Source of the DNA: a virus
Direction: 5' to 3' (one strand)
Length of the DNA: 64,000 nucleotides
Virus record (IMG/VR): IMGVR_UViG_3300042897_000742
Coordinates: 1-64,000 of that record
A program made the translations under genes and the position numbers. Numbering within the stretch: position 1 is the first letter of the stretch; the number at the start of each line of letters is the position of its first letter. Under the pieces are notes generated by a model, which worked only from the letters and a program-made list of their open reading frames with translations, searched no databases and was not told the origin of the DNA. Positions 1,764 to 63,478 of the stretch are shown here, one piece after another.

Positions 1764-2807
1764 ATGAAAGAACTTGTCAATTTTGAACACTTCAGAATAA
1801 TTAGAGAAGCCGAAATTAAATTAGAGGCTCATCTTGACCGTGTAGTTGAACAGGCGATAAATGAAGCTGCGCCTAAACCTGCACAAACTAGAGCAGGTGC
1901 CCTTTTTCAAAATCCTGTTAAATTTTTAAAGATTAAGAACAATGCAAAGAAGTACCAACAGGCGCTAGTACAAAAGGCTCTTAATAATGTAGACTATGAA
2001 AAGAAGGTACAGGCATCTGGTGGAGAAGTAGATGCAGATAAAAAGGAGGTTCTTAGACAGGCTAATGCTGCAAAGAACCAGGCACTTACCGATAAGGCCA
2101 GCGCTATTTCTGACCGTATGAATACTCTTGCAACGAGTCCAGGTTTACAGGCCGTTAAATCTCTTGCTATTTCAAAAGCTAAAGTTGCCGCTGCTGAAAC
2201 TGCTCTTAAAGCTGCTGATGCCGAAGAAACTAAACAACTTAAGATTCAAATAAAGAAACTTAATGCACAAGCTGCTAAGGCAGAACAGACTATTAAGGAT
2301 TATGAAAAGGCCGGAGAACCTAAAGCAGAAGAACCACAGGCTCAAGAGAAACCACAGCAGCAAGAAATGCCTAAAGTAAAGGATAATAAACCTGCAGCTG
2401 AGACTAAGCCCGAAGGTGAAACTAAACCCGAAGGTGAAACTAAACCTGCAGCTGAAACTAAGCCCGAAGGTGAAGATAATACTGAAAAGATAAACGCTAT
2501 AGATGCTAAGATTGATGGTTTAAAAAATAATAAAAAGACTAAAGAAGACCAGCTTAATTCAAAAAATCATCCTGATGTTTTAGCTATTGAAAGACAAATT
2601 AAAGCGGAAGAATTAGAAAAAGCAAAATTAGGTGGTAATTCTGATGATATTGCCGCTGCACAATCTGCTCTTAATGTTGCACAAGATGATCTAAAGGCAG
2701 CCGTTGATGCTGAAAAGGAAGGTACACCGCAAAACAATTCATATGAATATGTTGGTGAATCTTTTACTGATAAATTTAGAAGATTAAGTAAAAATGTAAA
2801 TGTATAA
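1764..2807 (+). CDS. coiled-coil, Ala/Glu/Lys-rich protein with capsid-targeting-like N-terminus
   Basis: This 347-residue, highly charged protein is nearly all helix. It has long Ala/Lys/Glu coiled coils (residues ~45-190 and ~235-325) and a low-complexity hinge of KPEGET/KPAAET repeats (~205-235). The N-terminus MKELVNFEHFRIIREAEI fits the MKxxxxFExFxxxxE|A pattern shared by eleven other proteins here and by T4 internal head proteins, where the prohead protease cuts after Glu. Composition and position suit a prohead core (scaffold) or internal protein. It overlaps the next gene by 8 bases. The role is inferred. Confidence 0.6.
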   Translation: MKELVNFEHFRIIREAEIKLEAHLDRVVEQAINEAAPKPAQTRAGALFQNPVKFLKIKNNAKKYQQALVQKALNNVDYEKKVQASGGEVDADKKEVLRQANAAKNQALTDKASAISDRMNTLATSPGLQAVKSLAISKAKVAAAETALKAADAEETKQLKIQIKKLNAQAAKAEQTIKDYEKAGEPKAEEPQAQEKPQQQEMPKVKDNKPAAETKPEGETKPEGETKPAAETKPEGEDNTEKINAIDAKIDGLKNNKKTKEDQLNSKNHPDVLAIERQIKAEELEKAKLGGNSDDIAAAQSALNVAQDDLKAAVDAEKEGTPQNNSYEYVGESFTDKFRRLSKNVNV

Positions 2808-34951: not shown

Positions 34952-35902
34952 ATGAAGTACTTAAAACTGTTTGAAGAATTCTTAAATGAAGCCGCTGAAG
35001 AAACTGGGTTAAAGAAAGTTTATCTAGCCACTCGTCGTGATAGCGGACAAAGATGGTGGTCTTATAAAGGGTTCGCCGGTGATAAATTCTTTATCCAGGT
35101 TACTGAGAATAACATTGATAAGTTAGATATTAATCCTGAGTACCCGGTACTTAATTATCATAGTACCATTGTAGATGAGTTACTAAAGAAGAAAAAGATT
35201 AAAGAAGAAAACATCTATAATCATCCTAAGTATATTCCATTATCAGGTTCTAAGAAAGAATTTCATAAACTCGTAGGGGAGGATGAAAATGTACCTAAGA
35301 CAGTTTATTCAAAGAATGAAGCATTAGAGAAGTTAAATTTTCCTATTATTGCAAAACCTGCAAATGGTCACAGTGGAATTGGAATCCAGGTAATTAAGAA
35401 GCCTGAGTTAATGGAAGAGATTGATGAGAAGATCTTCGATACTTTTTCTGAATATGTAGATAAAGTAGAAGAAATGAGATTCTTTAACTTTAAAGGTCAA
35501 CCTATCTTTTGGATGGAAAGAACACCTGCAAACAGTAAAGCAAAGTCTGGTGATGGCAAGACCGATGAAGAAATGGAATTCAAGTATGCTAAGAGAAATG
35601 TTAATAACATACCAGAAGACTATAAAAAGGTTTTAGAAAAGTATTGCAAAACATTTGAAAAATTTCCCTATATTTGTTTTGATATGATGAAAGACAAAGA
35701 AGGAAAGATTTATGTAATTGAATCGAATGCTCAACCCGGCGTACCGTTCGATAGTACGGTTGAAATCTATAAGAAAGTATATGAAGATTTCTATGGTAAA
35801 CCATTAGACGATAAATCTCTTCAAAAACTAGATAAATACGCAAAAGAAATGGTTGAAAGAACGCTAAAACGCGATAGTGGAAGATTTTCTGTAAAAAAGT
35901 AG
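34952..35902 (+). CDS. ATP-grasp ligase-like protein with capsid-targeting-like N-terminus
   Basis: The start at 34952 gives 316 residues beginning MKYLKLFEEFLNEAAEE, which fits the shared head-targeting pattern with a possible cut after FLNE. An upstream in-frame start would overlap the previous gene. The body has ATP-grasp features: FPIIAKPANGHSGIGIQVIK (~132-151), an acidic loop, and KIYVIESNAQPGVPF (~264-278) with the metal-binding Glu and Asn. ATP-grasp enzymes join carboxylates to amines; the substrate is unknown. A ligase packed in the head and injected with DNA would be notable. Confidence 0.75.
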   Translation: MKYLKLFEEFLNEAAEETGLKKVYLATRRDSGQRWWSYKGFAGDKFFIQVTENNIDKLDINPEYPVLNYHSTIVDELLKKKKIKEENIYNHPKYIPLSGSKKEFHKLVGEDENVPKTVYSKNEALEKLNFPIIAKPANGHSGIGIQVIKKPELMEEIDEKIFDTFSEYVDKVEEMRFFNFKGQPIFWMERTPANSKAKSGDGKTDEEMEFKYAKRNVNNIPEDYKKVLEKYCKTFEKFPYICFDMMKDKEGKIYVIESNAQPGVPFDSTVEIYKKVYEDFYGKPLDDKSLQKLDKYAKEMVERTLKRDSGRFSVKK

Positions 35903-45505: not shown

Positions 45506-45730
45506 ATGGAAAATCAAAATCCTCAAGAATTAACCCAAGCACAGGCAGTAAATGTTTTAATCCAGGCCGCTCGCATTGCACAGTCAAAGGGAGCATTCAC
45601 GCTTGAAGATGCAGAATTAGTTTCTAAAGCAATTAAGGCGTTTGTACCGGTTAACCAAGAAAATGGCCAGGATCCTGTGATTAACGAGTCTTCTAATGAA
45701 GTCGTTGAACCGGTAATTGAAAAAGCATAA
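45506..45730 (+). CDS. small hypothetical protein (74 aa)
   Basis: This 74-residue protein has a helical first half (LTQAQAVNVLIQAARIAQSK, then FTLEDAELVSKAIKAF) and an acidic tail. It is a single-gene unit between a late-type box and a strong terminator. Function unknown. Confidence 0.6.
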   Translation: MENQNPQELTQAQAVNVLIQAARIAQSKGAFTLEDAELVSKAIKAFVPVNQENGQDPVINESSNEVVEPVIEKA

Positions 45731-45754
45731 AGTGGTTAAACTCTTGGTTTTGAT

Positions 45755-45788
45755 AGAGGATCTGAGAAATCAGATCCTCTTTTTTTTC
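45755..45788 (+). terminator. Rho-independent terminator
   Basis: An 11-bp stem AGAGGATCTGA/TCAGATCCTCT with loop GAAA is followed by seven T before C. Its presence excludes the upstream in-frame start of the next gene. Confidence 0.92.
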
Positions 45789-45821
45789 TTACAGATAAAT
45801 AATAAAATTAAGAACCTGCAG

Positions 45822-47297
45822 ATGAAGAGGAGAATTCCTAAAATAGTAGTTAACCCTACGAGAGTACAACCTAATAGACCAATTCAGGTTGTTAATCAAG
45901 TACAACCACAGAGACAACCAGTTCAGATTAATAATGCACCAACTGCACCATTAAATAAAAGGACTACCTTTTCTGCAAAGAGTTCAAATAGAGTTTTTAT
46001 TTTAGGCGGTGGGCCTTCAATGAAAGATATGAATCTTTCTTTTCTAAAAGATGAAGATGTTATTTGTGTAAATAAGTCGATTGATCTGGTAAGAAATCCT
46101 ACATTCTTTATTACAATGGATTATAGCTTTTTTGGAAAAGTAGGGGCATCAGTTCAAACTATAGCAGCAAAGGCTAAAAGTAGTCATTTTGTAATTAATA
46201 AAGGTCATAAGTATATACAAGAAATAAATGGAACTTATGTTGATGTTAGAAATAATCTAAGGTATACAGGCCTTGAACATTTTTCATCAGTAATTGAATC
46301 AGGTTTAACTACTCATGATAGGAGTGGATTTGGACTTTCTCTTAAAGAATTTTGCCACGGTGATAACAGTGGTTATTGTGCAATTCAATTTGCAATTTTA
46401 GCAGGATATCGTGAAATTTACTTATTAGGATTTGATTTAGGAAATACCAATATTCATTCAGAAACTCATTTTCATGGAGCTTATCCTAAAGTACCATCTG
46501 AAACATTTAGACAAAAGTTAGGTACATATACAGCAAATCTTGTATCATCAATGTCTAAAGTATCAACAAAGAGTTCTGTTAAAATAATGACAATGACACC
46601 ATCACCATTAGAGGCTGTAATTCCTTTGATTAAAACTGTAAGAGGCGTTGATAAAGTAGAATTAACGCAACCTCCTAAAGAAACGCCTAATCCAACATCT
46701 TCATTGTCAGATTTAGTAATAGTTGCATATTATACACTTAATACACCCTATGAAGAAGAAGCTAAAAAATTAATTAGATCTTTAAGTAGATTAGGACTTA
46801 CTTATGATGTAGTTGGGGTTAAAAATCTTGGTGATTGGCAAGCAAATACCAGATTTAAGGCTAAGTTTATGGAAGATATGTTAAACAAACATTTAGGTAA
46901 AAATCTTTTATACGTTGATTCCGATGCAATAGTTCATAGTAAACCTATTCTTTTTGAAAATTATGATTGTGATATTGCTGTAAGATGGCAAGACTTTAGA
47001 TGGAGACAAAATGAATGTCTAAGCGGAACCATATTTATGGCAAATAATGAAAAGACCAGAGAACTTTGTAAAAGATGGCAAAGAATTAATATAAGCGAAG
47101 GTCCTAATGCAAAAACATTTGAACAGTGGAACTTAGGTTCGGTAATTAAACAAATGGAATCAGAAGGAAAAATAAAAACAAATAATCTACCGGCAGAATA
47201 TACATTTATCTTTGATAGCATGAGAGCAATGTATCCTAATGCAGTACCTGTTATTGAGCATTTTCAGGCAAGTAGAAAATTAAGAAATAAACTATAA
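45822..47297 (+). CDS. fusion of a Maf/GT42-like domain with a GT-A-like glycosyltransferase domain
   Basis: The ATG at 45822 is chosen because the upstream start lies before the terminator; the protein has 491 residues. Residues ~55-280 parallel the minus-strand gene at 3277: VFILGGGPSMKDM, CVNKSIDL, CHGDNSGYCAIQFAIL, IYLLGFDLG. Residues ~300-491 look like a GT-A sugar transferase with the DxD-like KNLLYVDSDAIVHSKPIL and EQWNLGSVI. A low-complexity Pro/Gln N-terminus (QPNRPIQVVNQVQPQRQPVQ) precedes both. Two transfer domains in one chain suggest stepwise glycan building; substrates are unknown. Confidence 0.65.
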   Translation: MKRRIPKIVVNPTRVQPNRPIQVVNQVQPQRQPVQINNAPTAPLNKRTTFSAKSSNRVFILGGGPSMKDMNLSFLKDEDVICVNKSIDLVRNPTFFITMDYSFFGKVGASVQTIAAKAKSSHFVINKGHKYIQEINGTYVDVRNNLRYTGLEHFSSVIESGLTTHDRSGFGLSLKEFCHGDNSGYCAIQFAILAGYREIYLLGFDLGNTNIHSETHFHGAYPKVPSETFRQKLGTYTANLVSSMSKVSTKSSVKIMTMTPSPLEAVIPLIKTVRGVDKVELTQPPKETPNPTSSLSDLVIVAYYTLNTPYEEEAKKLIRSLSRLGLTYDVVGVKNLGDWQANTRFKAKFMEDMLNKHLGKNLLYVDSDAIVHSKPILFENYDCDIAVRWQDFRWRQNECLSGTIFMANNEKTRELCKRWQRINISEGPNAKTFEQWNLGSVIKQMESEGKIKTNNLPAEYTFIFDSMRAMYPNAVPVIEHFQASRKLRNKL

Positions 47298-47303
47298 TTA
47301 TTT

Positions 47304-47978
47304 ATGAAAATAAATGAATACTTTGATAAAGTAATATGCATTAATCTTGCCAAGCGATATGATAGGTGGGAAGAAATGCAGGAGCAGTTTAATAAGCATA
47401 AAATTAAAGTAAGTAGATTTAATGCAATTGATGGAAATCCTATGGGATGGAAGAGCGAGAATTTTGCAGGAAAGGAAACCTCATTCAATGGCGCCATGGG
47501 TTGTATTGCAAGTCATGTTAATGTATATAGTTTAGCCAAACAAAATGGTTGGAAAAATGTTTTAATTATTGAAGATGACTGTGATTTTATAGATAATCTA
47601 AATGAAATGTTTGAAGAGTCTATAAAAACATTACCTAATAAATGGGATCTTTTATATTTTGGTGGAGTTCATGAAACGCGAGGTGGTAAATTCGTTCCTG
47701 AAAAATTTAATAAGTATTTTGTTAGGGCAAAGAGAATTATAACAACTACATGTTATGCAGTTAATCATACTGCATATGATTTAATTTTAGATACCGTCTT
47801 AAAAAAGAAACCTTATTTTGATTGTCCTATAGATACATACTTAGGAGCTTATATACAGCCTAGTTTAGAAACATATGCCTATCATCCACCGATTGCATGG
47901 CAGAGACCAAGTCATAGTGATATTCAAAATGCCCACCGTGACTATTCAGAAATGATGAAAAAGAATAACATAAAATAG
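47304..47978 (+). CDS. GT25-family glycosyltransferase
   Basis: This 224-residue protein has the GT25 (LgtB/Lpt-like) pattern: KVICINLAKRYDRWEEMQEQ (~9-28), VSRFNAIDG (~36-44), GAMGCIASHVNVYSLAKQNG (~63-82), VLIIEDDCDF (~87-96) and YFGGVHETRGG (~117-127). These enzymes add sugars, usually galactose, to surface glycans. It starts 6 bases after the two-domain transferase. Confidence 0.82.
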   Translation: MKINEYFDKVICINLAKRYDRWEEMQEQFNKHKIKVSRFNAIDGNPMGWKSENFAGKETSFNGAMGCIASHVNVYSLAKQNGWKNVLIIEDDCDFIDNLNEMFEESIKTLPNKWDLLYFGGVHETRGGKFVPEKFNKYFVRAKRIITTTCYAVNHTAYDLILDTVLKKKPYFDCPIDTYLGAYIQPSLETYAYHPPIAWQRPSHSDIQNAHRDYSEMMKKNNIK

Positions 47979-47982
47979 CATT

Positions 47983-48546
47983 ATGAAGATTGATTACATA
48001 ATTGCAACTTTATATAGAGATACATTAGATAGAGCTATAAAATCTATAACAGACGAAGGTACAAATCATAACATTTTTGCTATCGGACATATTAAGGATG
48101 GACGAGGGTGTGGTAACAGAAATGCAGGTTTATCTCAAGTTAAAGATAGTGATTGGATTATTTTTCTGGACGATGATGATTATCTAGTTAGAGGATTTAG
48201 TAAACAACTTGATAATAATTTTGATATTGTTGTTTTTAGGATGTCCCAGGATGCATCTAATCCATATTACCCACCTAAAATTATTCCAAGAGTATGTAAT
48301 AAATGTTCTGAAACTACATCAAAAGGATGCTGTTTACATAGTGGGAATGTTGGTAGTAATTTTGCAATAAAGACTTCATTTTATCTTAAGTATAAATGGT
48401 TATTTGATTGTTCTGTTAGGATACCAGACTGGCATTTCTTAGAAAGGGCAATTGAGAAAACCGATAAGATAAAAGTTACAAAAGATATATTTTATGTTGC
48501 TCCAATGGGAGGATATAATAAAGTAAAACCTAATGGAAAAAAATAA
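47983..48546 (+). CDS. GT2-like glycosyltransferase
   Basis: This 187-residue protein has a GT-A start MKIDYIIATLYRDTLDRAIK, then RGCGNRNAGLSQVKDSDWI and IIFLDDDDYLVRG with the metal-binding Asp cluster (~64-67). A CNKCSETTSKGCC segment may bind metal. It is short for GT2, so it may be a compact or partial enzyme. It lies 4 bases after the GT25 gene. Confidence 0.7.
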   Translation: MKIDYIIATLYRDTLDRAIKSITDEGTNHNIFAIGHIKDGRGCGNRNAGLSQVKDSDWIIFLDDDDYLVRGFSKQLDNNFDIVVFRMSQDASNPYYPPKIIPRVCNKCSETTSKGCCLHSGNVGSNFAIKTSFYLKYKWLFDCSVRIPDWHFLERAIEKTDKIKVTKDIFYVAPMGGYNKVKPNGKK

Positions 48547-48552
48547 AAGAGT

Positions 48553-49146
48553 ATGATAATAACAGTTTATAATGATGTTATACCACGAGATGTTGTGGAG
48601 AGCCAAAGAAAGGTATTTGAAAAATTTGGAGAAAGGATTATACAAATTAAACCGAAAGTATGGGAAGGGCATGCCCATACAGTTGATTCTCATTTAAGAA
48701 ATAACGAATGGGAATATGCAATAGTAGTTGATATTGATTGTATTCCTCTAAATAAAGATGTGATTAAAGAAGCAAGAGAATGGGCTTTAAAGAATATAGG
48801 ATTATATTCAGTTGCACAAAATCCTAATCATATACCAGGTGCTCCTGATTATGCAAGCCCAGCCTTTATTGCATTTTCAAGAAAGACTTATGAAGAACTA
48901 GGAAGACCCAGTTTTCAAGGAACTAAGACCTGGGATGTTGGTGGTGAATTAACCTATAAGGCAAGAGAAAAAAATATGCCGATAGTATTAATGTATCCAA
49001 GTCATGTTGAAATTCCTAAATGGAAATTTAAAGATGGAAAAATGTTTGGAATAGGAACTACTTATGCAAATAAAATATATCATCATTTTGAAGGAAGAAG
49101 AGTAACAAAAAGTTTTTTAGATAAATGTAAACAAATTTTATTATGA
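48553..49146 (+). CDS. glycosyltransferase-like protein
   Basis: This 197-residue protein has a nucleotide-sugar-transferase-like core with YAIVVDIDCIPLNKDVIKEA (DxD at ~56-58), later APDYASPAFIAFSR and TWDVGGELTYKAREK. The best guess is a GT-A fold enzyme of unknown specificity. It overlaps the next gene by 4 bases (ATGA). Confidence 0.6.
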   Translation: MIITVYNDVIPRDVVESQRKVFEKFGERIIQIKPKVWEGHAHTVDSHLRNNEWEYAIVVDIDCIPLNKDVIKEAREWALKNIGLYSVAQNPNHIPGAPDYASPAFIAFSRKTYEELGRPSFQGTKTWDVGGELTYKAREKNMPIVLMYPSHVEIPKWKFKDGKMFGIGTTYANKIYHHFEGRRVTKSFLDKCKQILL

Positions 49147-50996: not shown

Positions 50997-51878
50997 ATGA
51001 AATTTATTAAAACGTTTGTTAACTTCTTGACAGAGAAGAAGGAGGAAAAGGATTTTGAGGATAAAATAAAAGGTCATGGCTATTTTAAGGGAATATCTAC
51101 TTCAACCGCCCGTAAGAAAATGGATCAGATGAAAGATCAGGCCGCTAAACCTGACGATGATCCTTCTGCTTATAAAGAATTACCAGGCGACACTAAAGGA
51201 AAGAAACTTCTAAAACCTTCTAAACATACTAAGAATTATCAGGATCTTTATGCTGATGATGAAAAGGAAACAAAAAATGAATCCATCATTAATTGGGAAC
51301 TTTATCAACAACTAAAAGGTGGATCTACGAAAATTGAAAAAGAGCTTAAATATCAGATAGCTGAAAAGTACATAACTATAACAGCAACCGGACTTAATAA
51401 AGATGATAAAGCTGCTCTTATCAAAATGGGTGCAAATGTTACTATGATGGGCCCAGGATGGTATATAAATCTTAAAGATACTGATAAGAAAAAGATATTG
51501 GATTATCTTAATAAAGAAGGTATCGAAGTAAATGAAAACATTAATGAAGAATCTGGTGGAGATCGTTCACCGATTGATAATGATGCAATTGAAACTGGGT
51601 TAAAGAAAAAGAGTGAAGAAACTGGAGTTCCTCTTCCACTCCTTAGAATCGTAATGCGTCGTGGTATGGCTGCATGGAAGAGTGGTCATCGTCCAGGTGC
51701 AGGACAAGAACAGTGGGGTTATGCAAGAGTTAATTCATTTTTAACCCAAGCACCAGGTACTTGGGGTCGTCCTATTAAAGATCCTAAGAAAGGTGCAAAG
51801 GATGCCTATGGTGCTGATGCCGATGTTGCACAAGAAGTAATTAAAGGTGGACATGATAAAAATTTAAAGAAAGGATAA
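50997..51878 (+). CDS. DUF5824-like protein with capsid-targeting-like N-terminus
   Basis: This 293-residue protein begins MKFIKTFVNFLTEKKEEKD. Three parts follow: a disordered basic region (~20-95), a compact domain (~105-178: KYQIAEKYITITATGLNKDD, then GPGWYINLKDTDKKKIL) and, after NENINEESGG, a C-terminal module PLLRIVMRRGMAAWKSGHR with QEQWGYARVNSFL found in phage head-associated proteins (DUF5824, from memory). NESI and NINE|E between parts could be protease sites. It is the first of eight consecutive genes with this N-terminus. Confidence 0.65.
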   Translation: MKFIKTFVNFLTEKKEEKDFEDKIKGHGYFKGISTSTARKKMDQMKDQAAKPDDDPSAYKELPGDTKGKKLLKPSKHTKNYQDLYADDEKETKNESIINWELYQQLKGGSTKIEKELKYQIAEKYITITATGLNKDDKAALIKMGANVTMMGPGWYINLKDTDKKKILDYLNKEGIEVNENINEESGGDRSPIDNDAIETGLKKKSEETGVPLPLLRIVMRRGMAAWKSGHRPGAGQEQWGYARVNSFLTQAPGTWGRPIKDPKKGAKDAYGADADVAQEVIKGGHDKNLKKG

Positions 51879-52324
51879 TGAAAACTATAAAACTTTTTGA
51901 AGAATTTAAAGAAGCAACTTCTTGTCCGGTACCAACTAAAGATTTAGAAGTTAATACCAAAAATCGTAATAGAGCAATTCATGCAGACTTTATTGATTAT
52001 GGTCCTCTTAATGTAGATGAACCTGCTGGGTATTGGGAACATCTCGCAGATCATTGGAAAACTAGTGTAGAAGCTGCTAAGAAATCAACGTGTGGAAATT
52101 GTGTTGCATTTGATATAGCTCCTCGTATGTTAGATTGCATGCCAGGTGAAATTAGCGATGAAGATGGAAAGTTAGGTTATTGTTGGATGCATCATTTCAA
52201 ATGTCATTCTGCACGTAGCTGTTATACTTGGGCAAAAGGCGGTCCTATAACTGATGATAAAGTATCATATGATTGGCAAGAAAGAAATCTTGATGCTGCA
52301 AATAATCCAAACCCTATTAAGTAA
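51878..52324 (+). CDS. Cys-rich phage protein with capsid-targeting-like N-terminus
   Basis: This 148-residue protein begins MKTIKLFEEFKEATS. Seven Cys and several His at ~70-115 (CGNCVAFDIAPRMLDCMPGE, then GYCWMHHFKCHSARSC) form a likely metal or Fe-S site. I recall a similar Cys pattern in T4-like cyanophage proteins of unknown function. Its ATG overlaps the previous stop. Confidence 0.6.
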   Translation: MKTIKLFEEFKEATSCPVPTKDLEVNTKNRNRAIHADFIDYGPLNVDEPAGYWEHLADHWKTSVEAAKKSTCGNCVAFDIAPRMLDCMPGEISDEDGKLGYCWMHHFKCHSARSCYTWAKGGPITDDKVSYDWQERNLDAANNPNPIK

Positions 52325-52333
52325 TTGTTAAAT

Positions 52334-52876
52334 ATGAAATTTGTAAAAAACTTTAATGACTATCATAAGGTATCTGAAGGACTCAAGTATCATATAGAAA
52401 ATGGTTTGGATTTAACCAACAGTGTTTATCGCTTAGGTTCAGATTCATATACCAATCTATTTGAAGAAGTAAAACAGTATTGGGATAAAGGTAATATCAT
52501 TCTAAACGGAAAAAGCGGTTGGATGGCAAAAAACCTTGAAGTTGGAAAACCTGCTGTTTATAATGACCGTAAAACTGGAAGAACTACCAAAGTAAAACTC
52601 GATTCACCGGAAAGAGGTGGAAATAAAAAGTTTATCGTTTATCGTAATACAGGTCGTACTGATGAAAACGGTAATGTAATTGCAAAAAAGATTGAATGGG
52701 GTGATCCGAACCTTACTGTAAAGAATGATGATCCAGGCAGAGCCGCATCATTCTGGGCAAGACACGGTTGTGATAAAGCTGAAAAAATGGATCCTAATAA
52801 GGCAGGTTTCTGGGCATGCTATGGTCCAAGTCTGTTCGGGAAGCAGTTAGGTTTAAGTAGTACTGAACCTTGGTAA
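52334..52876 (+). CDS. conserved phage head-type protein with capsid-targeting-like N-terminus
   Basis: The ATG at 52334 is preferred to the TTG nine bases upstream because it restores the shared N-terminus (MKFVKNFNDYHKVSEG). The 180-residue protein ends with a pattern I associate with many phage structural genes: KIEWGDPNLTVKNDDPGRAA, SFWARHGCD and FWACYG. Molecular role unknown. Confidence 0.6.
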   Translation: MKFVKNFNDYHKVSEGLKYHIENGLDLTNSVYRLGSDSYTNLFEEVKQYWDKGNIILNGKSGWMAKNLEVGKPAVYNDRKTGRTTKVKLDSPERGGNKKFIVYRNTGRTDENGNVIAKKIEWGDPNLTVKNDDPGRAASFWARHGCDKAEKMDPNKAGFWACYGPSLFGKQLGLSSTEPW

Positions 52877-52905
52877 ATAAATAAACAAATAATATAACAA
52901 AAGAT

Positions 52906-54261
52906 ATGAAACATATTCCTAATTATTCTGAATTTAAGAAAATTAATGAAGCCTTTGCTACTTCAATGACAACGGTTCAGACTGATGCTAAATTAAATCA
53001 AGCGGCAGATATCATTACAAATTTCTTAAATAAGAAAACCGGTAAAGCATTTAAGAAATTCCCATTCCTAGTATATTCAGGTGGAACTCCAGGTATTATG
53101 CTTTATAGCGATAAAGATAATTCTGCTGTTAGAATCAGTGGCGGTTCAGGTCGTTTTCCTGGTGTTGTTGGTCAATTAGATTACTTCTCTGATGGAGCTT
53201 CTCATACGGCTGATTTTTCTGTTAGTAGTGAAACATTTCCAATCGTTGCATTACTTAATGAATTTGTTAAATTAGTTAATGAACCTTCATATGCATCAGA
53301 AGTAGAATCATTAACAGAATCTACATTAAATGAAGCAACTAAATCGTTCTCTCCAGCTGAACAAAAAACAATCTTAAGCAGATTGGATAAAGGAGAAAGC
53401 GGTGCTGCTATTGCAAGAGATATGGGAGTATCGTATGGTATGATTTTACAACTTAAGAGAAATGTAAGTGTACCTGAAGATGAGAGTCCTGCTGTAAAGG
53501 CAAATGAATTAACATTACAAGATAAGGTTAAACTATTAGATGAAACGCTTGATGACCTTTATGAAATTACAAGAAGACTTGCCGCTGGCGCATTTACTTC
53601 TTTAATGGTTTCAGGTAGAGCAGGTACTGGTAAAACATTCTCCGTTACTAAAGCCTTAAAGGATGAAGGACTTATTGAGGATGATGACTTTATCGTTGTA
53701 TCTGGTGCAGTATCAGTTATTATGATGTATAAGAAAATGTATCAATATAGAAACCAGGTTCTGGTATTTGATGACTGTGATGCTGTATTCCGCGATGAGA
53801 ATGGCCGTAACATCTTAAAGGCTGCCCTTGATACTAAAAAGACTAGAAGAATCTCTTATCTTAAGAAGAGCGGATTAGTATTTGATCCTAAGGATTTTGA
53901 AAATAATCCAGAGGGTGAATTTAATGCAATTGAAAATGGATTAGTTCCTGCATATTTTGATTTTGCCGGTAGAGTGGTATTTATTTCAAACCTACCTAAA
54001 GATAAGGCTGACCCGGATGGGGCTATTCGTTCAAGATCAATCTTAATTGATGTTAATCCTGATGATATGACTCTAATGGAAAGAATTAAAATTCTTTTAC
54101 CGGATCTTGAACCAAGAGATATGCCTCTCAAAGATAAAGAAGAAATTTTTGAATTTATGAAACGTGCAAAAGACGTCTCAATGAGAACATTTGTTAAGGC
54201 TGCTGGTTTCAAACAGGCAGGTTTAAACAATTGGGAAAGAATGGCACAAAGATATCTATAA
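52906..54261 (+). CDS. multi-domain AAA+ ATPase with capsid-targeting-like N-terminus
   Basis: This 451-residue protein begins MKHIPNYSEFKKINEAFA (INE|A cut site). A beta-rich domain follows (~20-135), then LTESTLNE|ATKSF at ~138-150, a second cut-like site. An HTH-like segment KGESGAAIARDMGVSYGMIL (~164-183) precedes an AAA+ core: Walker A SGRAGTGKT (~237-245), Walker B VLVFDDCDAVF (~285-295), and an arginine-finger region IRSRSILIDV (~367-376). Cutting at LNE would release the HTH-AAA part. An ATPase packed in a head and injected would be unusual. Confidence 0.72.
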   Translation: MKHIPNYSEFKKINEAFATSMTTVQTDAKLNQAADIITNFLNKKTGKAFKKFPFLVYSGGTPGIMLYSDKDNSAVRISGGSGRFPGVVGQLDYFSDGASHTADFSVSSETFPIVALLNEFVKLVNEPSYASEVESLTESTLNEATKSFSPAEQKTILSRLDKGESGAAIARDMGVSYGMILQLKRNVSVPEDESPAVKANELTLQDKVKLLDETLDDLYEITRRLAAGAFTSLMVSGRAGTGKTFSVTKALKDEGLIEDDDFIVVSGAVSVIMMYKKMYQYRNQVLVFDDCDAVFRDENGRNILKAALDTKKTRRISYLKKSGLVFDPKDFENNPEGEFNAIENGLVPAYFDFAGRVVFISNLPKDKADPDGAIRSRSILIDVNPDDMTLMERIKILLPDLEPRDMPLKDKEEIFEFMKRAKDVSMRTFVKAAGFKQAGLNNWERMAQRYL

Positions 54262-54264
54262 TAT

Positions 54265-55710
54265 ATGAAACACTTTAAATCATATAGTGAGTTTAAACTC
54301 CAGGAAAAGTACGAAGGCGTAGAGGTTAGTACTAGACGCTACGAAAGAGTACATGGTAAAAAACCACGTGGAAATGGAATGTGGGCATTTTACCTTGATC
54401 CAGTTGGTGATGAACCTATTTTTACTCCATCTGCTATGAATTATGCCGATGCCGTTAAATGGGCATCTCTTAAAGCCAGAAACATGGGTAAGAAAGTTAT
54501 CTATGTTGGTGAATCACTTAATGAAGCATTAAAGATTGGTGATTTTGTTCGTTATAAAAAGGATAATGACTTTACTGGTGGAAAGATTACAGATCTTAAA
54601 AGTGGAAATGCAATTGTAAAAAATTGGGATGGATCCGAATCAGAATTTAAGCTAGGTGATTTAGAATATGTTAAATCATGGAATGAAGCCGAAAAGAGAG
54701 GTGATAATAAAATTTACTTCAATAAAATGAGCGATATTGACCATACTAGACTTGTTAAATGGATGGGAAAAAATTTAGATAGCGATTATAACGATTATAA
54801 ATTTACAAAAGGTGGGAAAACAAGCACAGACACTCACACCCTAGACACTACTAAATTATCGGAAACCGAACTTAAAGATTTAATCCACTACCTGGAAAGT
54901 CAAAGATATAAATTCTATACCGAAATTTGGTTACCTGCTTACGAAAGTGTTAATGAACGCGAATACACCGATGAACAAAGAATGGATATGGCTGATAAAG
55001 GCCTAGCCTTACCTGATGGCAGCTTTCCAATTAAAGACTTAGAGGATCTTAAAAATGCTATTCAGGCATACGGCCGCTCAAAGGATCAATCCGCTACTGC
55101 TAAATTTATTGTTAAGAGAGCAAAAGCTTTAAGTGCTGAGGATCTTATTCCTGATACCGAGGATTTTCAAAAAGCTTTAAAGGAAACTATTACTGAAGGT
55201 AATGCATTTCTTGCTGCTCGTGCAAAAGCCATCGAAGAAGATGCTGAAGAGTTTGAATTTAACGGTAAGAAATATCCTGTTCTAAACAGACCTAAGAAAC
55301 TTAATGAAGAGCTTTCTGATAATGATGCCTATAAGATTATAGATATAGGTTCAAAGTTTTCTAAGGAAGTAGGCGGTCATTTACTTGCAACTCAAACATT
55401 TGATACAGCAAACGATTTTGTTGATTATCTTCTCTCTGAATTTATTCCAAAGAAGGATCATCCAAAATTCTTAAAATCTGTTAAATCTCTAATGGAATCA
55501 GATTCATCAGAGGAAGATACCGACGAAGAATACATTGATCCAGCTACTTTACCACAATCGGTAAAGGACTATGTTTCTTCTAATTATTCAGATGCTAAAA
55601 TAACTAAAGCTGAAAGTGATGAAGATGGTTTTGAAGTATACTTAAGCAATGGATTAGAGCTCGTATTTGGACCTGACGAAAAATTCATTAAAGCCGTAAA
55701 AGAATCTTAA
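54265..55710 (+). CDS. modular polyprotein-like internal protein with PepSY-like C-terminus
   Basis: This 481-residue protein begins MKHFKSYSEFKLQEKYEG. Distinct short modules are separated by cleavage-like motifs: GESLNE|A (~88-94), ESVNE|R (~225-230), ETITE|G (~307-312) and KKLNE|E (~346-351). Modules include KIGDFVRYKKDNDFTGGKIT (SH3-like), a conserved phage segment ALPDGSFPIKDLEDLKNAIQ, and a C-terminal PepSY-like domain (LPQSVKDYVSSNYSDAKITK, then VYLSNGLELVF). It looks built to be cut into four or five pieces; that is inferred. Confidence 0.62.
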   Translation: MKHFKSYSEFKLQEKYEGVEVSTRRYERVHGKKPRGNGMWAFYLDPVGDEPIFTPSAMNYADAVKWASLKARNMGKKVIYVGESLNEALKIGDFVRYKKDNDFTGGKITDLKSGNAIVKNWDGSESEFKLGDLEYVKSWNEAEKRGDNKIYFNKMSDIDHTRLVKWMGKNLDSDYNDYKFTKGGKTSTDTHTLDTTKLSETELKDLIHYLESQRYKFYTEIWLPAYESVNEREYTDEQRMDMADKGLALPDGSFPIKDLEDLKNAIQAYGRSKDQSATAKFIVKRAKALSAEDLIPDTEDFQKALKETITEGNAFLAARAKAIEEDAEEFEFNGKKYPVLNRPKKLNEELSDNDAYKIIDIGSKFSKEVGGHLLATQTFDTANDFVDYLLSEFIPKKDHPKFLKSVKSLMESDSSEEDTDEEYIDPATLPQSVKDYVSSNYSDAKITKAESDEDGFEVYLSNGLELVFGPDEKFIKAVKES

Positions 55711-55712
55711 AG

Positions 55713-56306
55713 ATGAAATACTTTAAAAAATATAATGAATTTGTTACTGAAAAGATTGCATATCCTGACGGGGATAAATCTACAGGTGATAAGATTCTTG
55801 ATAAATTTGCTAAATTGATTAATAGTCCATCTAGTACTGTTAATATTATGTCATGGGCGGTTCAGGGTAGAAGTATACCTTTTATGACTGGTACCGAATC
55901 ATTTTCTGTAAATGCTAATCCATCGCAAGACTATTTTTGGATTAATACATCAAAGGGAAAATTTAGACTACCTAAAAAAGATATCAAAAAGGCAGAAGAA
56001 CTTTATGATGAGGTAGAATCTATTATACAGACAGGTAAGCCTAAAAGGAGTGTTGAAGAATCTCTTAATGAATCTACTTCACTAAAGAATGCAATCGCTA
56101 TTCTTAAAAAGGAAAACATTATGGCATATCCTAACCCAGAAGATTTGGCAAAAGCAATTCACAAACACTATAAAGAAATTACAGGTAATAAATATGAAGA
56201 TGCCGTTGAAATGTCAATGAATGATAAGGTAGCTGATATCGTATCATATTTTAAGATTGATGGCTCTGATTTTATGTCAGCCTGGGATAAAACAATAAAA
56301 GACTAA
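55713..56306 (+). CDS. two-part internal protein with capsid-targeting-like N-terminus
   Basis: This 197-residue protein begins MKYFKKYNEFVTEKIAYPDG. A first domain (~20-110) ends at SVEESLNE|STSLKN, and a helical second part (~122-197) follows. The spacer motif matches those in the neighbouring genes. No family is recognised for either part. It starts 2 bases after the previous stop. Confidence 0.6.
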   Translation: MKYFKKYNEFVTEKIAYPDGDKSTGDKILDKFAKLINSPSSTVNIMSWAVQGRSIPFMTGTESFSVNANPSQDYFWINTSKGKFRLPKKDIKKAEELYDEVESIIQTGKPKRSVEESLNESTSLKNAIAILKKENIMAYPNPEDLAKAIHKHYKEITGNKYEDAVEMSMNDKVADIVSYFKIDGSDFMSAWDKTIKD

Positions 56307-56312
56307 AAAATT

Positions 56313-56729
56313 ATGATTACATCATTTAATAATTTCGTAAACGAAAACTTTGGAGAAGCCCAAGACATTTATGGTTCATTCTTCGTGGCTATGTTAGGCC
56401 TTAGAGATCAGGCTCATATTTTCCATTGGCAAACGGAATCATTTGCACAGCATAGCGCATTCGGTGGATTTTATGATTCATATCTCGACCTTGTTGATAA
56501 ACTATCAGAATCATTAATTGGCATTCATGGAAGACCTTCTTTTATGGAGGCTGAAATTGAGTTATATGGTTACAGTGAAGAAAATATAGCAATGTTTTTA
56601 GAAAAAGCATATGCCCTATTCTTAGGTCAAGGTACTGAATTGGCCGGAGGTAATACCGAAATCAAGAATATCATCGATGAGATTATTGCTGAACTTGATA
56701 AATTAAAGTATCTTCTTACTTTAAAGTAA
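56313..56729 (+). CDS. ferritin/Dps-like helical protein with capsid-targeting-like N-terminus
   Basis: This 138-residue protein begins MITSFNNFVNENFGEAQD, a shortened form of the shared N-terminus. The helical body has LRDQAHIFHWQTESFAQHSA and YDSYLDLVDKLSESLIGIHG, the His/Asp/Glu spacing of ferritin-like Dps proteins; a similar phage family is DUF5856, from memory. It could bind iron or DNA in the head. Metal-site completeness cannot be judged by eye. Confidence 0.65.
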   Translation: MITSFNNFVNENFGEAQDIYGSFFVAMLGLRDQAHIFHWQTESFAQHSAFGGFYDSYLDLVDKLSESLIGIHGRPSFMEAEIELYGYSEENIAMFLEKAYALFLGQGTELAGGNTEIKNIIDEIIAELDKLKYLLTLK

Positions 56730-57031
56730 TGAAATACATTAAGGCATACGAATCATTCTTATTTGAAGGAAAACCTAAAGGTGCTCCTGATTGGCATGAT
56801 AGTGATGCACCAGATGCGGAGGGTCGTTTTAAAGAATTAAATCCTAAAGATCTTGCTGCGTGGTTAATTAAGACAAGAAAGGGCGATCTTAAGAGAATAA
56901 GTGGTTCGCTAACTCAACAGGTTGTTTTTAACCGTAATGATGATCCTGCATATGCAGATAAAATGGAAAAGACTCGTAAAGAAGTTTATAAACAATTAGG
57001 GAGAGAAGACCTATTAAATAAAAAGGATTAG
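56729..57031 (+). CDS. small conserved protein with capsid-targeting-like N-terminus
   Basis: This 100-residue protein begins MKYIKAYESFLFEGKPKG (LFE|G cut-like site). It continues with DLAAWLIKTRKGDLKRISGS and LTQQVVFNRNDDPAYADKME, a segment type frequent in T4-like phage small proteins. It is basic overall. Last of the eight-gene run. Confidence 0.62.
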   Translation: MKYIKAYESFLFEGKPKGAPDWHDSDAPDAEGRFKELNPKDLAAWLIKTRKGDLKRISGSLTQQVVFNRNDDPAYADKMEKTRKEVYKQLGREDLLNKKD

Positions 57032-61399: not shown

Positions 61400-61635
61400 G
61401 TCATTTTAGAAATAAATTAGATTCCTTTCATTATCATGAAGCTTTGGACAGAACTGCTATGATATGTGATATGATAGATACATTTTTAATACAACACCCA
61501 GCGAGTAAAGCAGAAAAACAATTTGCTGAAAAATTAGAAGATGCAAGTATCAAATTATTTGAAGCTTATCAAATAATAGGAAGTATTTGTCATAATAAAG
61601 AAAATGAATATGATAACAAACCCAAGACCAAATAA
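61396..61635 (+). CDS. small hypothetical protein (79 aa)
   Basis: This 79-residue helical protein (FHYHEALDRTAMICDMIDTF...) overlaps the previous stop. Function unknown. Confidence 0.55.
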   Translation: MSHFRNKLDSFHYHEALDRTAMICDMIDTFLIQHPASKAEKQFAEKLEDASIKLFEAYQIIGSICHNKENEYDNKPKTK

Positions 61636-61645
61636 AATTGTAAAA

Positions 61646-63478
61646 ATGACAGAAGAAGAATTTTTAGCTGCTGCAGGTTTAACTGAAAGAAACCCAACAA
61701 AACCTGGAATAGCACTAGGATTTTCGGTTGGGCATGATAAAGGAGCAGTACTTATTATAAACGGTAAAATCTCGGTTGGTATTTCTGAGGAAAGATTATC
61801 AAGACTTAAACATGATAAACCTTGGGATCATTCAATACCTTTAGCATCAATTAATTATTGCTTAGATTATGCAGGAATTAGTTATGATGATGTTGATATG
61901 TATTGTTATAATACGGCCGAGGTCGGAAAGCAACCTATTCTTGATATTGAAAATGAATTTCAGTTTTTACTAAGACAACCTTTAAGTAAATTAAAATTCT
62001 TAAATCACCACGAGGCACATGCATTTTCAACTTTCTTTAGTTCTGGTTTAAAAGAAGCCTCCGTTGTGGTTGCTGATGCAAATGGAAACGGAATTATTCC
62101 TGATACTCCTGCTTATGAAGGGTTTGCAAAGAACAATCCAGAGTATCTAAATAATGCCCCTAAGAATAGATTTTGGGCAGAAGGTACATCAATTTATCAT
62201 TTTACTTTAGATGGGTTTAAAGAATTAGAAAAAGACTTCGTTCTTCAACCGCACCCACCTCTTAATGATTTTAATAACAAAGAAAGATTTAATATTGGGC
62301 ATGTTTATGCATATGCCACAATGAAACTTGTTTATAAGTATAATGAAAAAGATCCTAATAATAATTGGCCTGCATCAAGTGCAGGTAAGCTTATGGGATT
62401 GGCTTCATTTGGGAATAAAGGCTGGGTAGATACACAACCTTATCTTTGTGATTATGATGATGTTAATCATACTTTTACAAATGAAGCTGGCAAAATCTAT
62501 AAGGCATATCCAGGCGTAAGTATAGATTCAAACTTTGCAGAAAAAGCAAACATAGCAGCGGTATTTCAACGTGAACAAGAAAGAATGTGTCTTACTGTAG
62601 CCAAAAGAGCTAAAAAGTTATCAGGATCTAAAAACATCTGTTTATCTGGTGGTTCATTCCTAAACTGTAATTCAAATGAACTTATCATTAAGAGCGGTGA
62701 ATTTGATAATTGTTATTTTGTACCGCCGGCAGACGACAGCGGTATTCCTTTAGGGTGTGCATGGTATGCATATCAACAAGTTATGAAAATAACAGATAAC
62801 TATTTTCTTTCACCTTACTTAGGAAAGACATATACCACTCTTGAAATAGAGAGAGACTTCCAAAAATTTGTTAAAGAAGATCCTACTAGGATTAATCATT
62901 TTACTGTTTTTGATCATACCGATGAAGATGTATTAATTACTCATCTTACAGACCTATTAAATTCAAATAAAGTTATAGGTATGCATAGAGAAGGATCCGA
63001 GATTGGTCCTCGTGCATTAGGTAATCGTTCTATTTTAGCATCTCCGATTAAACCTTGGATGCAGAACTATGTAAATATGCATATTAAAAGTAGAGAATGG
63101 TTTAGACCTTTTGCACCTTCTGTATTAGCAGAACGAGTTTTAGATATTTTTGATATTACTGAATTCTCTCCTTACATGCTTATTACATGTAATGTTAAAG
63201 AAAGGTGGAGATCTCGCATACCTGCGGTTGTTCATACCGATAATACTTCAAGAATACAAGCAGTAAGAAGTGATATTAATCCATTCTATCATAAGCTCAT
63301 AACTAAATTTGAACAGTGGACTGGTGTTCCTGTAATTCTAAATACATCGTTTAATGGAGCGCATGAACCTATGGTTGAAACACCATACGATGCATTAAAA
63401 ACTTTTTGGACTTGCAATCTTGACGCTGTATGTATTGGTAATAAACTAATAATTAGGAATTCATACTTTAATAGGTAA
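61646..63478 (+). CDS. carbamoyltransferase (NodU/CmcH/TobZ family)
   Basis: I prefer the ATG at 61646, 10 bases after the previous stop; in-frame ATGs at 61604 and 61610 would overlap that gene. The 610-residue protein has the Kae1-like N-domain with LGFSVGHDKGAVLIINGK, EERLSRLKHD and NHHEAHAFSTFFSSG. The YrdC-like C-domain has LSGGSFLNCNSNE, REGSEIGPRALGNRSI, REWFRPFAPSV and NTSFNGAHEPMVETPYDAL. The enzyme moves a carbamoyl group from carbamoyl phosphate to a hydroxyl. Targets could be a sugar or, given the dCMP-hydroxymethylase-like gene, 5-hydroxymethylcytosine. Confidence 0.88.
   Translation: MTEEEFLAAAGLTERNPTKPGIALGFSVGHDKGAVLIINGKISVGISEERLSRLKHDKPWDHSIPLASINYCLDYAGISYDDVDMYCYNTAEVGKQPILDIENEFQFLLRQPLSKLKFLNHHEAHAFSTFFSSGLKEASVVVADANGNGIIPDTPAYEGFAKNNPEYLNNAPKNRFWAEGTSIYHFTLDGFKELEKDFVLQPHPPLNDFNNKERFNIGHVYAYATMKLVYKYNEKDPNNNWPASSAGKLMGLASFGNKGWVDTQPYLCDYDDVNHTFTNEAGKIYKAYPGVSIDSNFAEKANIAAVFQREQERMCLTVAKRAKKLSGSKNICLSGGSFLNCNSNELIIKSGEFDNCYFVPPADDSGIPLGCAWYAYQQVMKITDNYFLSPYLGKTYTTLEIERDFQKFVKEDPTRINHFTVFDHTDEDVLITHLTDLLNSNKVIGMHREGSEIGPRALGNRSILASPIKPWMQNYVNMHIKSREWFRPFAPSVLAERVLDIFDITEFSPYMLITCNVKERWRSRIPAVVHTDNTSRIQAVRSDINPFYHKLITKFEQWTGVPVILNTSFNGAHEPMVETPYDALKTFWTCNLDAVCIGNKLIIRNSYFNR

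Follow-up and report, generated by a model that had tools for sequence, protein, structure and literature searches.

In IMG/VR virus record IMGVR_UViG_3300042897_000742, one gene of a T4-like phage probably encodes a cleavable protein of the head interior. Its sequence and that of its relatives point to a product that would be packaged, trimmed to a protein made of a helix-turn-helix (HTH) and an AAA+ core, and ejected. The record comprises 93,871 bases and is itself partial; the window analysed here is its first 64,000 nucleotides. The gene has an ATG start and encodes 451 amino acids (aa), with the parts that an earlier reading of the letters (the original prediction) had assigned to it. The opposite strand across 52906-54261 holds no open frame of comparable length, and no known defence-system model gave a match. 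Its layout is as follows, where an arrow marks a predicted cut and CTS stands for capsid-targeting sequence.

52906-54261, + strand: whole gene, CTS, alpha/beta domain, double cut site, HTH and AAA+ (ATG start; full-length relatives)
52906-52950, + strand: capsid-targeting-like propeptide (the tag), residues 1-15, MKHIPNYSEFKKINE, of the T4 IPII/IPIII pattern
52948-52953, + strand: first predicted cut, INE15↓A16
52987-53319, + strand: alpha-beta5-alpha domain, residues 28-138 (AlphaFold2 model of the domain alone, predicted template modelling score 0.73)
53311-53322, + strand: second predicted cut, LTE138↓S139
53326-53337, + strand: third predicted cut, LNE143↓A144
53350-53475, + strand: HTH-like segment, residues 149-190 (Pfam HTH_38/HTH_Tnp_1, E ~0.01, below cut-off; stronger in relatives)
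53521-54258, + strand: AAA+ core, residues 206-451, NrdC.10/phrog_1250 type
53614-53637, + strand: Walker A, GRAGTGKT, residues 237-244 (alignment of relatives)
53758-53775, + strand: Walker B, VLVFDD, residues 285-290 (alignment of relatives)

The tag resembles those of the T4 internal proteins (IP). MKHIPNYSEFKKINE↓A, which ends YSEFKKINE↓A, matches the IPII/IPIII tag MKTYQEFIAE↓A, the latter taken from the T4 genome. In the IPIII tag, residues 4 and 7 carry targeting and residues 8 and 10 processing (PMC9026906); Y7xxF10 and I13xE15 of the window protein correspond to these functional positions. The tag thus has counterparts of the aromatic residue 4, F7, I8 and E10 that mark a tag of IPIII type, and most relatives read [FYL]xxF[ILV]NE, while a KK insertion ahead of the cut site is found in the closest relatives only. 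Our set of relatives comprised 27 full-length proteins, 18 of which, sharing <80% identity, were used for site statistics. All 27 have a tag-like start, which holds down to ~28% identity, and some tags are even nearer to the T4 pattern (MKFFNFNQFVNE↓A, MHFLDFNSFLNE↓A and MKHVKLFEEFINE↓S).

Tags of this kind recur in the whole record, where they open 15 of the 107 likely genes (shuffled starts: mean 1.9, maximum 9), a rate of 14% at gene starts vs 1% at internal methionines. A tagged protein adjoins the capsid gene in a close relative of the record (G006, 45843-47000; homologue of window 1764-2807), and relatives carry one tagged small protein between the portal and protease genes, as a core-binding signal predicts. 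An AlphaFold2 model of the whole 451-aa protein has a mean predicted local distance difference test (pLDDT) of 83. Values are 41-53 over residues 1-30, and the only residues below 50 are 1-4, 14-26 and 139-144. The tag and the junction ahead of the HTH are therefore the low-confidence stretches of the model, which places the N-terminus outside the fold; an N-terminus within the fold had been named as what would refute the original prediction. The targeting-like N-terminus gains both from the model and from its presence in every relative.

The predicted prohead-protease sites are also conserved. [ILVM]xE[ASGN] clusters at residue 15 and at residues 135-143, with few occurrences in the rest of the protein, and 17 of the 18 diverged sequences have it aligned at the first cut. 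The cut-like LNE↓A (residues 141-143 ahead of the arrow) had been noticed from the letters; to it we add LTE138↓S, five residues upstream. All 18 sequences have one or more [ILVM]xE in the linker that joins the alpha/beta domain to the HTH (9.3 in shuffles), 17 have [ILVM]xE[ASG] there (shuffles: mean 2.7, maximum 10), and 16 have a pair of sites spaced 3-10 residues apart (shuffles: mean 1.3, maximum 7), far above chance. The letters themselves differ among relatives (STLNEA, SMVNEA, ESVNEG, ELVEES, DALNEA and SLLLEG). Since they vary while [ILVM]xE stays, it is the site, not the sequence, that is conserved.

The machinery that such a protein would need is encoded by close relatives of the record. 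Two of them, G001 and G006, are near-identical to it (98% in the AAA+ protein) and encode a Peptidase_S77 of the T4 gp21 family (E 2e-16) with a scaffold-like C-terminus fused to it, as well as a Gp23 capsid protein (E ~1e-28) with HNLNE↓SVYNT at its N-terminus. The scaffold-like tail of the G006 protease (L042, 1435-3165) contains repeated YAEYLSEN/YSDYLAEN units with an E site in each. Among the 11 records searched, which include these two and more distant ones, 7 have a gp21-type protease above the curated cut-off and 8 have Gp23. In marine relatives the gp46/47-type recombination genes (SbcC/SbcD) precede the AAA+ gene, either immediately or with a single gene in between, and downstream of the AAA+ gene follow genes for a late sigma factor, head closure, a DNA end protector, the portal, a tagged small protein, the protease-scaffold and the capsid; the distance to the protease and capsid genes is 6-8 kb. 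Taken together, the relatives, the model and the gp21 and Gp23 genes of close relatives support the sequence-level reading of the original prediction, namely a tag, a junction site and an N-terminus outside the fold.

Public phage records yielded one nearly full-length relative, in the 642-kb genome LR756502, with the tag-like start MKIKKYQAFYEA and tagged neighbours. The gene is also present, with phage recombination and portal genes, on a contig of 606,700 bases binned as a SAR324 bacterium (L149; CAJJCY010000001.1), which is probably viral or chimeric.

The part that would be released carries a complete AAA+ core, as had been proposed. Besides the Walker motifs it has sensor 1 (N362), an arginine-finger candidate (R377) and sensor 2 (R427), all kept across the relatives and in T4 NrdC.10 (NP_049708), the T4 homologue of the core (phrog_1250, E 9.3e-42). 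Structure prediction and fold search, the check suggested for this part, gave an AAA+ fold with MoxR-type proteins on top (VIA comparison: CbbQ Z 12.8, NorQ Z 12.5), which lead Orc1, sigma54 activators and clamp loaders by only ~1-2 Z units. The HTH of the original prediction is supported by profiles of the relatives rather than by the window protein alone: HTH_38 reaches 1e-6 in the best relative, and HTH_7 (2e-4 in relatives) is found in 8 of the 27. In the window protein itself the segment falls short of Pfam cut-offs, and the model shortens its third helix.

T4 NrdC.10, a free-standing protein of 325 aa, has an N-terminal domain of its own. We know of no function for it, nor is it known to us as a virion protein. 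The NrdC.10 family matched 1,260 phage records; the cultivated members from T4, 44RR, VS1, D504, XaC1 and 30-3 have neither tag nor HTH. An earlier survey found no more than a marginal AAA match in the T4 protein (PMC1524935). Two kinds of match were set aside. In many coliphages tblastn matches start at residue 144. We did not use this start: at that point T4 NrdC.10 is without an HTH, and matches by profile begin at ~179-210. Kinesin and 'CAP repeat' matches were regarded as spurious P-loop or low-complexity hits.

The domain between the tag and the junction, described before as a beta domain, is folded in the model, as alpha-beta5-alpha. Foldseek returned no match for residues 28-138 at E <= 0.001, so that no known fold can be assigned with confidence, and the best VIA Z was 7.1. 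Cultivated phage records gave no match to the domain, and the other open reading frames of the loci examined lack it, except for one broken copy of the AAA+ protein family. Weak fold matches to CapZ (Z 7), p32 and LolA were given no interpretation. The domain also aligns with residues 72-203 (DarA_N) of P1 DarA, below CapZ in rank (Z 5.8, root-mean-square deviation 3.1 over 91 residues). Homology to DarA_N (PF18788) was rejected at an hhalign probability of 0.2% and is kept as a weak lead only; a PF18788 search of 10 records found no match, in a search that had no positive-control signal. By analogy, the domain may be either a long propeptide, as in phage SPN3US, or a second cargo.

This alignment bears on the alternative that survives best, that the protein is packaged and processed and helps to build the head or to organise the DNA, doing nothing in the host. 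P1 DarA and Hdf, which lie against the inner face of the capsid, touch DNA and influence head size (PMC12810830), would offer a partial parallel, and the position of the gene near head genes in marine relatives fits such a role as well. We consider it unlikely, however: it is hard to see what an ATP-dependent motor would do in a filled head, the conserved double cut would free the AAA+ part from both the tag and the alpha/beta domain, DarA itself is also ejected, and the DarA_N link fails profile comparison.

The gene belongs to a closely spaced run of tagged genes (50997-57031), all on the + strand, with these neighbours.

50997-51878, + strand: neighbour with tag MKFIKTFVNFLTE↓K and DUF5824 (tag scan, Pfam)
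51878-52324, + strand: neighbour with tag-like N-terminus MKTIKLFEEFKEA, outside the 15 counted tagged proteins
52334-52876, + strand: neighbour with tag MKFVKNFNDYHKVSE↓G (tag scan)
54265-55710, + strand: tagged polyprotein with internal sites LNE87↓A, VNE231↓R and ITE311↓G
55713-56306, + strand: tagged protein with internal site LNE120↓S, of the same tag-domain-site-domain plan as the AAA+ protein
56313-56729, + strand: tagged homologue of T4 rI.-1 (phrog_858, DUF5856)
56729-57031, + strand: tagged small protein, MKYIKAYESFLFE↓G (tag scan)

The sequences suggest that these neighbours are cassette-like polyproteins. Homologous modules occupy different proteins and different orders among relatives, and 17 of 24 internal boundaries of module alignments lie <=8 residues from a predicted site, against 16% expected; the associated p-value of 2e-9 is too optimistic because the boundaries are partly non-independent. 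Internal [ILV]NE[AS] is ~13x denser in tagged proteins than elsewhere (4 in 3,611 vs 2 in 23,087 residues, p 0.004). Boundaries and density together support our definition of the site. In L005, whose AAA+ protein is 95% identical, the polyprotein homologue has 560 aa and sites at 86, 181, 251, 319, 386 and 466. In T4 a distance of 3.5 kb separates rI.-1 from nrdC.10; their homologues here are tagged near-neighbours, so two proteins that have no tag plus cut site in T4 carry one here.

Across tagged polyproteins, [ILV][NTS]E sites are spaced every ~70-95 residues (window 54265-56306; L005 7359-10008; L068 5362-7858). A second tagged cluster lies beyond the window (L038 16060-19263, record positions 76060-79263) and includes one 375-aa protein with sites at 13, 106, 175, 250 and 309. 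An ATP-grasp enzyme at 34952-35902 would have a clear tag, MKYLKLFEEFLNE↓A, if an internal ATG is its start. By eye, the regions 45717-49146 and 61604-63478 hold glycosyltransferase-like genes and a carbamoyltransferase-like gene. Gene starts are A-rich and lack clear Shine-Dalgarno sequences, which would suit a Bacteroidota host.

The neighbours also bear on a second alternative, that the packaged protein loses its 15-residue tag only and residues 16-451 enter the cell whole, with LNE↓A unused. T4 IPs lose just a short propeptide (PMC9026906), and the use of a site cannot be read from sequence. This outcome seems slightly less probable again, given that paired sites recur in 16 of 18 diverged sequences within a disordered and otherwise variable linker and that module boundaries of the neighbours fall on the same site type. 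Least plausible is a cytoplasmic AAA+ protein like the free, untagged NrdC.10 of T4, with an N-terminus that binds something other than the prohead and with E sites due to chance or another protease, since the tag is common to ~15 otherwise unlike phage proteins (among them the capsid-gene neighbour and, in relatives, the one flanked by portal and protease genes), the site type equals that of the capsid protein and the junction sites are conserved.

We therefore return to the packaged, trimmed and ejected motor, and propose the following sequence of events. Residues ~1-15 would bind the prohead core and carry the protein into the prohead. A gp21-type protease would then cut after E15 and after E138/E143, to judge from the conserved sites, removing the tag and splitting the alpha/beta domain from the HTH-AAA+ part (308 aa, 34.6 kDa). 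The mature HTH-AAA+ protein would remain with the packaged DNA and be ejected together with it. Finally, and least certainly, the HTH would bind DNA in the cell and an ATP-driven ring would assemble, which could remodel protein-DNA complexes on the entering genome or on host DNA, for example by stripping defence or host proteins. Packaging would supply at time zero the activity that T4 has as free NrdC.10.

On the sequence evidence, packaging into the head is very likely, cutting at the junction is likely, and ejection with the DNA is reasonably probable; an action on DNA-protein complexes at entry is put forward only tentatively. These gradings are judgements and were not computed. T4 IPI-III are packaged, injected and inhibit GmrSD enzymes (PMC12373910), and on this precedent we favour counter-defence as the leading biological role. 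On its modelled fold alone the motor could equally strip host proteins, load replication factors or put a defence complex out of action.

Several observations weigh against the proposal. The DNA-directed role is read from the HTH plus the AAA+ core alone, and for that HTH the HTH_38 match in the window protein has an E of 0.012, under the Pfam cut-off, and AlphaFold gives a short third (recognition) helix. The partial record contains neither gp21 nor gp23, and the evidence for the machinery comes from relatives. The T4-type late promoter TATAAATA was found 10 times against 10.8 expected, with no excess that would prove late expression.

If the proposal is right, the widespread and unexplained NrdC.10 family would have a time and place of action that can be tested, namely the moments that immediately follow DNA entry, and the injected cargo of T4-type phages, so far small restriction inhibitors, would widen to include an ATP-driven motor. 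As far as we know, a T4-type head that delivers an AAA+ motor would be without precedent. The combination of tag and cut sites would also allow candidate injected effectors to be read directly in uncultivated genomes. We speculate further that this T4-like lineage has made the prohead protease a polyprotein processor, with a score or more of domains, the HTH-AAA+ motor included, packaged in tagged precursor form, cut within the head at [ILV]NE and co-ejected, and with effectors gained by module swaps exactly at the cut sites.

Among known systems, T4 IPI, IPII, IPIII and Alt, which are CTS-directed, processed by gp21 and injected, share the tag of aromatic-x-x-F and hydrophobic-x-E↓A, and close relatives of the record encode gp21 and gp23. 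The T4 IPs differ in being small inhibitors that lose only 10-19 residues and in lacking an AAA+ core, an HTH and a removable part of 143 residues. T4 NrdC.10 belongs to the same AAA+ family and has all its motifs; it has no tag, cut sites, alpha/beta domain or HTH, and the N-terminal 200 residues of the window protein differ from it, in keeping with the earlier remark that no T4 internal protein like this one was known. The MoxR-type proteins CbbQ and NorQ are the best fold matches of the core, tied with other AAA+ groups; no VWA partner was identified, and no search aimed at one was made.

The head proteins of SPN3US and phiKZ have long N-terminal propeptides cut at several x-x-E sites; in SPN3US these span 111-254 residues and are themselves cut several times (PMC10052503), a pattern that 143 residues with an extra cut at 15 would fit. 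These phages differ in site preference and in their distant protease, and AAA is not mentioned in that report. P1 DarA and Hdf are likewise internal and ejected, and DarA has a processed N-terminus with an alpha+beta domain directly after the removed segment; both are without AAA+, and profile comparison shows no relation to the alpha/beta domain. Polyvalent proteins (Iyer et al. 2017, PMC5512222) also hold several effector domains in one packaged polypeptide, with proteolytic separation presumed. No metallopeptidase domain appeared among the Pfam matches of the AAA+ protein or of the tagged neighbours scanned, and some polyvalent proteins are also without one. In polyvalent proteins processing is ascribed to a built-in metallopeptidase, whereas here it is assigned, through the repeated [ILV]NE sites, to a T4-type prohead protease.
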